A stretch of DNA of 36,359 nt from Cyclobacteriaceae bacterium (lineage in GTDB: Bacteria > Bacteroidota > Bacteroidia > Cytophagales > Cyclobacteriaceae): contig VFKK01000140.1 of NCBI GenBank assembly GCA_009885605.1, positions 1 through 36,359 of the forward strand, given 5' to 3'. Every line of letters starts with the position of its first letter. Position 1 is the stretch's first letter. The translations under genes were made by a program, and so were the position numbers. Of this stretch, positions 35,851-36,359 are shown in pieces. Below the pieces are notes generated by a model. The model did no database searches and was not told the DNA's origin. It worked only from the letters and a program-made list of their open reading frames with translations.

Positions 35851-35909
35851 GCGTGTAAATCCTCAGTTTAAGTTTAAAGATATGTTTAAATTAATTTAAT
35901 GCCGTTATG

Positions 35910-35981
35910 AGCCAACGACGGGAATTGAACCCGTGACCCATTCCTTACCAAGGAAGTACTCTACCCCTGAGCTACGTCGGC
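35910..35981 (-). tRNA. tRNA-Thr (anticodon GGT)
   Basis: GCCGACGTAGCTCAGGGGTAGAGTACTTCCTTGGTAAGGAATGGGTCACGGGTTCAATTCCCGTCGTTGGCT; loop TTGGTAA. Confidence 0.95.
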
Positions 35982-36010
35982 TTAAACCCGATACTTCCTA
36001 GAAAGTATTG

Positions 36011-36083
36011 AGCGGGAGACGAGGCTCGAACCCGCGACCTGCAGCTTGGAAGGCTGCCGCTCTACCAACTGAGCTACTCCCGC
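36011..36083 (-). tRNA. tRNA-Gly (anticodon TCC)
   Basis: GCGGGAGTAGCTCAGTTGGTAGAGCGGCAGCCTTCCAAGCTGCAGGTCGCGGGTTCGAGCCTCGTCTCCCGCT; loop CTTCCAA. Confidence 0.95.
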
Positions 36084-36359
36084 CCGGGCCGGCATCATAG
36101 CCCAGCTCAACGCGCGATCAGGCCGTGCGGTCCCTGGAGCAGCAGCGCGGCAGCCGTTGTGGCGAAGCGACCGTCATGGCGCGGCGCGTCCGGCGCTCCG
36201 CGTGATCGATCGAGCCACCCGCAGGGCAAGCTCGATGGACTCGTCGAGCGTCAGTTCGGCGCCCTCCTCGAACAGGTGGGCGAAGCGGTCGGGTTCGACC
36301 CGCACTCGGAGCGAGTCCTCGGTGCCGGCGCCGTAGCCGCCGGGATCCGCGACGAGGCC
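36084..36359. other. High-GC segment compositionally foreign to the rest of the window
   Basis: Hand count: 200 of 276 bases are G/C (about 72%), against a visibly AT-richer Bacteroidota-like background up to the edge of tRNA-Gly. Confidence 0.9.
36174..36359 (-). CDS. C-terminal fragment of an unidentified protein in the high-GC segment (tentatively actinobacterial-like)
   Basis: Open minus-strand frame from the window edge to a TGA: GLVADPGGYGAGTEDSLRVRVEPDRFAHLFEEGAELTLDESIELALRVARSITRSAGRAAP*. The ...LFEEGAELTLDESIELAL stretch resembles C-termini of large actinobacterial LuxR/ATPase-type regulators, from memory only. Confidence 0.4.
   Translation of the reverse strand, partial: GLVADPGGYGAGTEDSLRVRVEPDRFAHLFEEGAELTLDESIELALRVARSITRSAGRAAP

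Follow-up and report, generated by a model that had tools for sequence, protein, structure and literature searches.

Contig C234 is almost certainly a chimera: the sequence comparisons point to a low-GC locus that runs to position 36083, to which DNA of a GC-rich bacterium would have been added in assembly. The window, that is the whole stretch of 36,359 nucleotides analysed here, is the complete contig, and for this reason the high-GC anomaly stands at the very end of a contig, in an assembly (G000) of 349 contigs which is ~75% complete. The preliminary description had put the last 276 bases at about 72% GC and everything before them at roughly 40%, and the measured values are 72.5% for 36084-36359 and 41.4% for 1-36083. 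Taken over all 276-base stretches of 1-36083, mean GC is 41.3% (sd 2.9) and the maximum is 50.4%; the tail lies ~10 sd from this mean, and its composition is far beyond chance. The change point of GC likelihood falls at 36011, at the 3′ edge of the tRNA-Gly, because the tRNA gene is itself GC-rich, and comparison with relatives shows that native sequence is lost exactly at 36083/36084. This bears out the earlier placement of the switch at the 5′ boundary of the tRNA-Gly; the start of the gene, previously given as 36011, was one base off (Table 1). A sudden shift in composition where two sequences meet, as found here, is one mark of interspecies chimeric contigs. Such a fault at tRNA ends is not general in this assembly, since contigs C331 and C225, which carry other tRNAs near their ends, have no GC jump.

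The native order of the locus is known from relatives. The tRNA-Gly of C234 is shared without a single difference over its 74 bases by 21 congeneric genomes, and thus the gene is the host's own and the foreign DNA begins at its 5′ end. Beyond the tRNA-Gly, a tRNA-Tyr follows in low-GC DNA at 22 of 22 same-genus loci (the 21 genomes and G488; in one of the 21, G005, a contig end separates Gly from Thr, and only Gly-Tyr is visible), and it is present on contig C216 of G000 as well, as had been expected before any relative was compared. G488, the closest relative found, carries the order Trp-tuf-Thr-Gly-Tyr-peptidase on a single 630-kb contig. C234 matches it with 95.6% identity over 4.1 kb, a match that runs through to the final base of the tRNA-Gly, and the tail has no match at the G488 locus and is absent from 60 other genomes of the genus. 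Synteny in close relatives, which had been proposed as a check, is consistent with a false join: the native Tyr side is kept in 22 relatives and the tail is missing from the genus. A native continuation that is conserved elsewhere, in this case in the 22 relatives and on C216, is a second mark of chimeric contigs.

Contig C216 holds the Tyr side of the locus, in the order 38 AT-rich bases, tRNA-Gly, a spacer of the genus type, tRNA-Tyr and an M1 peptidase gene. From the tRNA-Gly onward, covering Tyr and the peptidase gene, it is 84.7% identical to G488, which is lower than the identity of C234; C216 may for this reason belong to a close relative and have been misbinned, although the genes that it covers are less conserved. 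The case for a chimeric tail is independent of C216, because the relatives alone give the native order. The tRNA-Gly of C216 is identical to the native gene in its first 26 bases and then has 6 differences, C216 departs from the G488 sequence inside this gene exactly past these 26 bases, and its 38-base 3′ flank has no match to the native Gly-Thr spacer. The body of the gene is that of the Gly gene at the Thr-Gly-Tyr locus of G195, which belongs to a different genus, and it is unlike the Gly of all 21 same-genus genomes compared. Judged from these matches, positions 1-112 of C216 are probably a second chimeric end, formed at the same 26-mer as that of C234. C234 leaves the native order upstream, where it enters GC-rich DNA, and C216 leaves it downstream, past base 26; that both do so in one tRNA is as expected for a collapsed short repeat. 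It is also conceivable, though rather unlikely, that C216 is correct and that the host has a real tandem of Gly genes (Tyr-Gly2-Gly1-Thr), a reading that concerns C216 alone, is compatible with a chimeric tail on C234 and would leave only that high-GC tail as an artefact. The tRNA-Gly of C216 is indeed complete and scores well, but two Gly genes are found at none of the 22 same-genus loci, G488 included, and the native match of C216 stops exactly where the shared 26-mer ends.

The 26-mer, GCGGGAGTAGCTCAGTTGGTAGAGCG, is present in exact form in 51 stretches of a viral collection, among them 7 loci (8 occurrences) of at least 60% overall GC, where identity stops at base 26. Unrelated high-GC sequences carry it without mismatch in their tRNA genes. 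A short identical sequence common to other organisms therefore lies at the join, which is a third mark of chimeric contigs. The route suggested in the preliminary description, a crossover between genomes at a k-mer of the tRNA 5′ part, holds in kind, as the 26-mer occurs in unrelated high-GC tRNAs and C216 crosses there; what C234 has in common with its real donor may extend beyond these 26 bases.

tRNA genes are frequent integration sites, and C234 is like tRNA-targeted integrative elements in having foreign DNA directly adjoining a tRNA gene; moreover, two contigs of G000 end near the tRNA-Gly with Gly copies on both sides, as the boundaries of an element can. A real insertion between tRNA-Gly and tRNA-Tyr, either of an integrative element or of a transferred high-GC segment and with the Gly of C216 as the other boundary, would mean that strain-specific GC-rich DNA splits a Tyr/Gly/Thr/tuf order from which the genus does not otherwise deviate, and we regard it as very improbable, since the would-be ends differ grossly (the 72.5% GC tail against the AT-rich 38 bases of C216), the two tRNA-Gly genes have differences to either side of the anticodon stem, a pattern that simple duplication of an attachment site does not yield, the tail is in no relative, and the boundaries lack the directly repeated tRNA end that flanks tRNA-integrated elements. 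Unlike such elements, the tail adjoins the 5′ end of the tRNA and lacks a matching second boundary; no integrase or other element gene is seen in its 276 bases, a stretch too short to exclude them. It had been pointed out earlier that integrative elements usually insert at the 3′ end or anticodon region of a tRNA, and a position of the foreign DNA at the 5′ end agrees with a native Gly unchanged in 21 relatives and a tail that starts only past 36083.

For the chimeric join, which we prefer, we infer the following route through the assembly graph and the following kind of donor. Positions 1-36083 would be the tuf-tRNA-Thr-tRNA-Gly locus of a low-GC genome of Bacteroidota type, and the 5′ part of its tRNA-Gly would have been merged in the graph with identical sequence that other bacteria of the sample carry. 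The path would then exit via the upstream side of the tRNA gene of a GC-rich bacterium, add 276 bases and end, and the native upstream side (spacer, tRNA-Tyr and M1 peptidase) would be left on C216, which would cross into the body of a different tRNA-Gly at the shared 26-mer. One node merged from several genomes at the 26-mer would account for both crossovers. Synteny, composition, C216 and the shared 26-mer all support the assembly join at the tRNA-Gly that was initially suspected. The joining of two organisms' DNA is a known but uncommon assembly error, and chimeric scaffolds of this kind are recognised by lost read-pair support or by a change in coverage or phylogeny (PMC7111523). C234 resembles interspecies chimeric contigs of short-read metagenomes in its join at a shared sequence, its contrast of composition and its position at a contig end; the present case is known from synteny and composition only. 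The tail is very probably an ordinary artefact and not a real feature. It is relevant to genome clean-up only, and 36084-36359 should be trimmed; if left in place, these bases could suggest a false gene end or a false transfer event in G000. Moreover, to judge from the paired crossover on C216, two contigs can be damaged simultaneously by a single tRNA k-mer.

Table 1. Features at the end of contig C234 and the evidence for each.
Feature	Position	Strand	Evidence
tRNA-Thr(GGT), native conserved neighbour	35909..35981	-	tRNA call and locus comparison
tRNA-Gly(TCC), native	36010..36083	-	ARAGORN; all 74 bases identical in 21 same-genus genomes
First 26 bases of tRNA-Gly, GCGGGAGTAGCTCAGTTGGTAGAGCG, presumed crossover node	36058..36083	-	exact in C216 and in tRNAs of unrelated high-GC sequences
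Foreign high-GC tail, 72.5% GC, without counterpart in the genus	36084..36359	.	GC and genus searches
Presumed donor spacer, high-GC, 90 bases	36084..36173	-	sequence, promoter scan
Open-ended frame, presumed donor protein (its final 61 codons), then stop	36174..36359	-	ORF list, codon-position GC

The layout of the tail is what one would expect upstream of a tRNA gene in a bacterium of high GC. The 61-codon frame on its minus strand has a codon-position GC of 0.80/0.54/0.85, with third positions that are GC-rich. In the spacer, TATGAT at 36094-36099, 10 bases before the tRNA-Gly, is similar to a -10 box on visual inspection alone, and a consensus scan of the spacer gave no promoter. Genome, viral, plasmid and phage searches returned no relative of the tail: among about 400 Bacteroidota genomes, a few had short weak matches (24-48 bases, best E 3.7e-5), plasmids matched its DNA in short pieces only, and Rfam gave no match. 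The 61-residue frame had no match of meaningful score in viral contigs, plasmids, Pfam, NCBIfam or PDB; its sole match in the genome collection (43% over 37 residues) is in low-GC cyanobacterial DNA and was taken as chance. A supposed likeness of the frame to the C-terminus of actinobacterial LuxR-type regulators found no support in the searches and was discarded. Elsewhere in G000, on contig C242 (3589-3747), one of two adjacent GerE-domain matches contains an in-frame TGA, which is possibly the mark of a pseudogene or a sequencing error.
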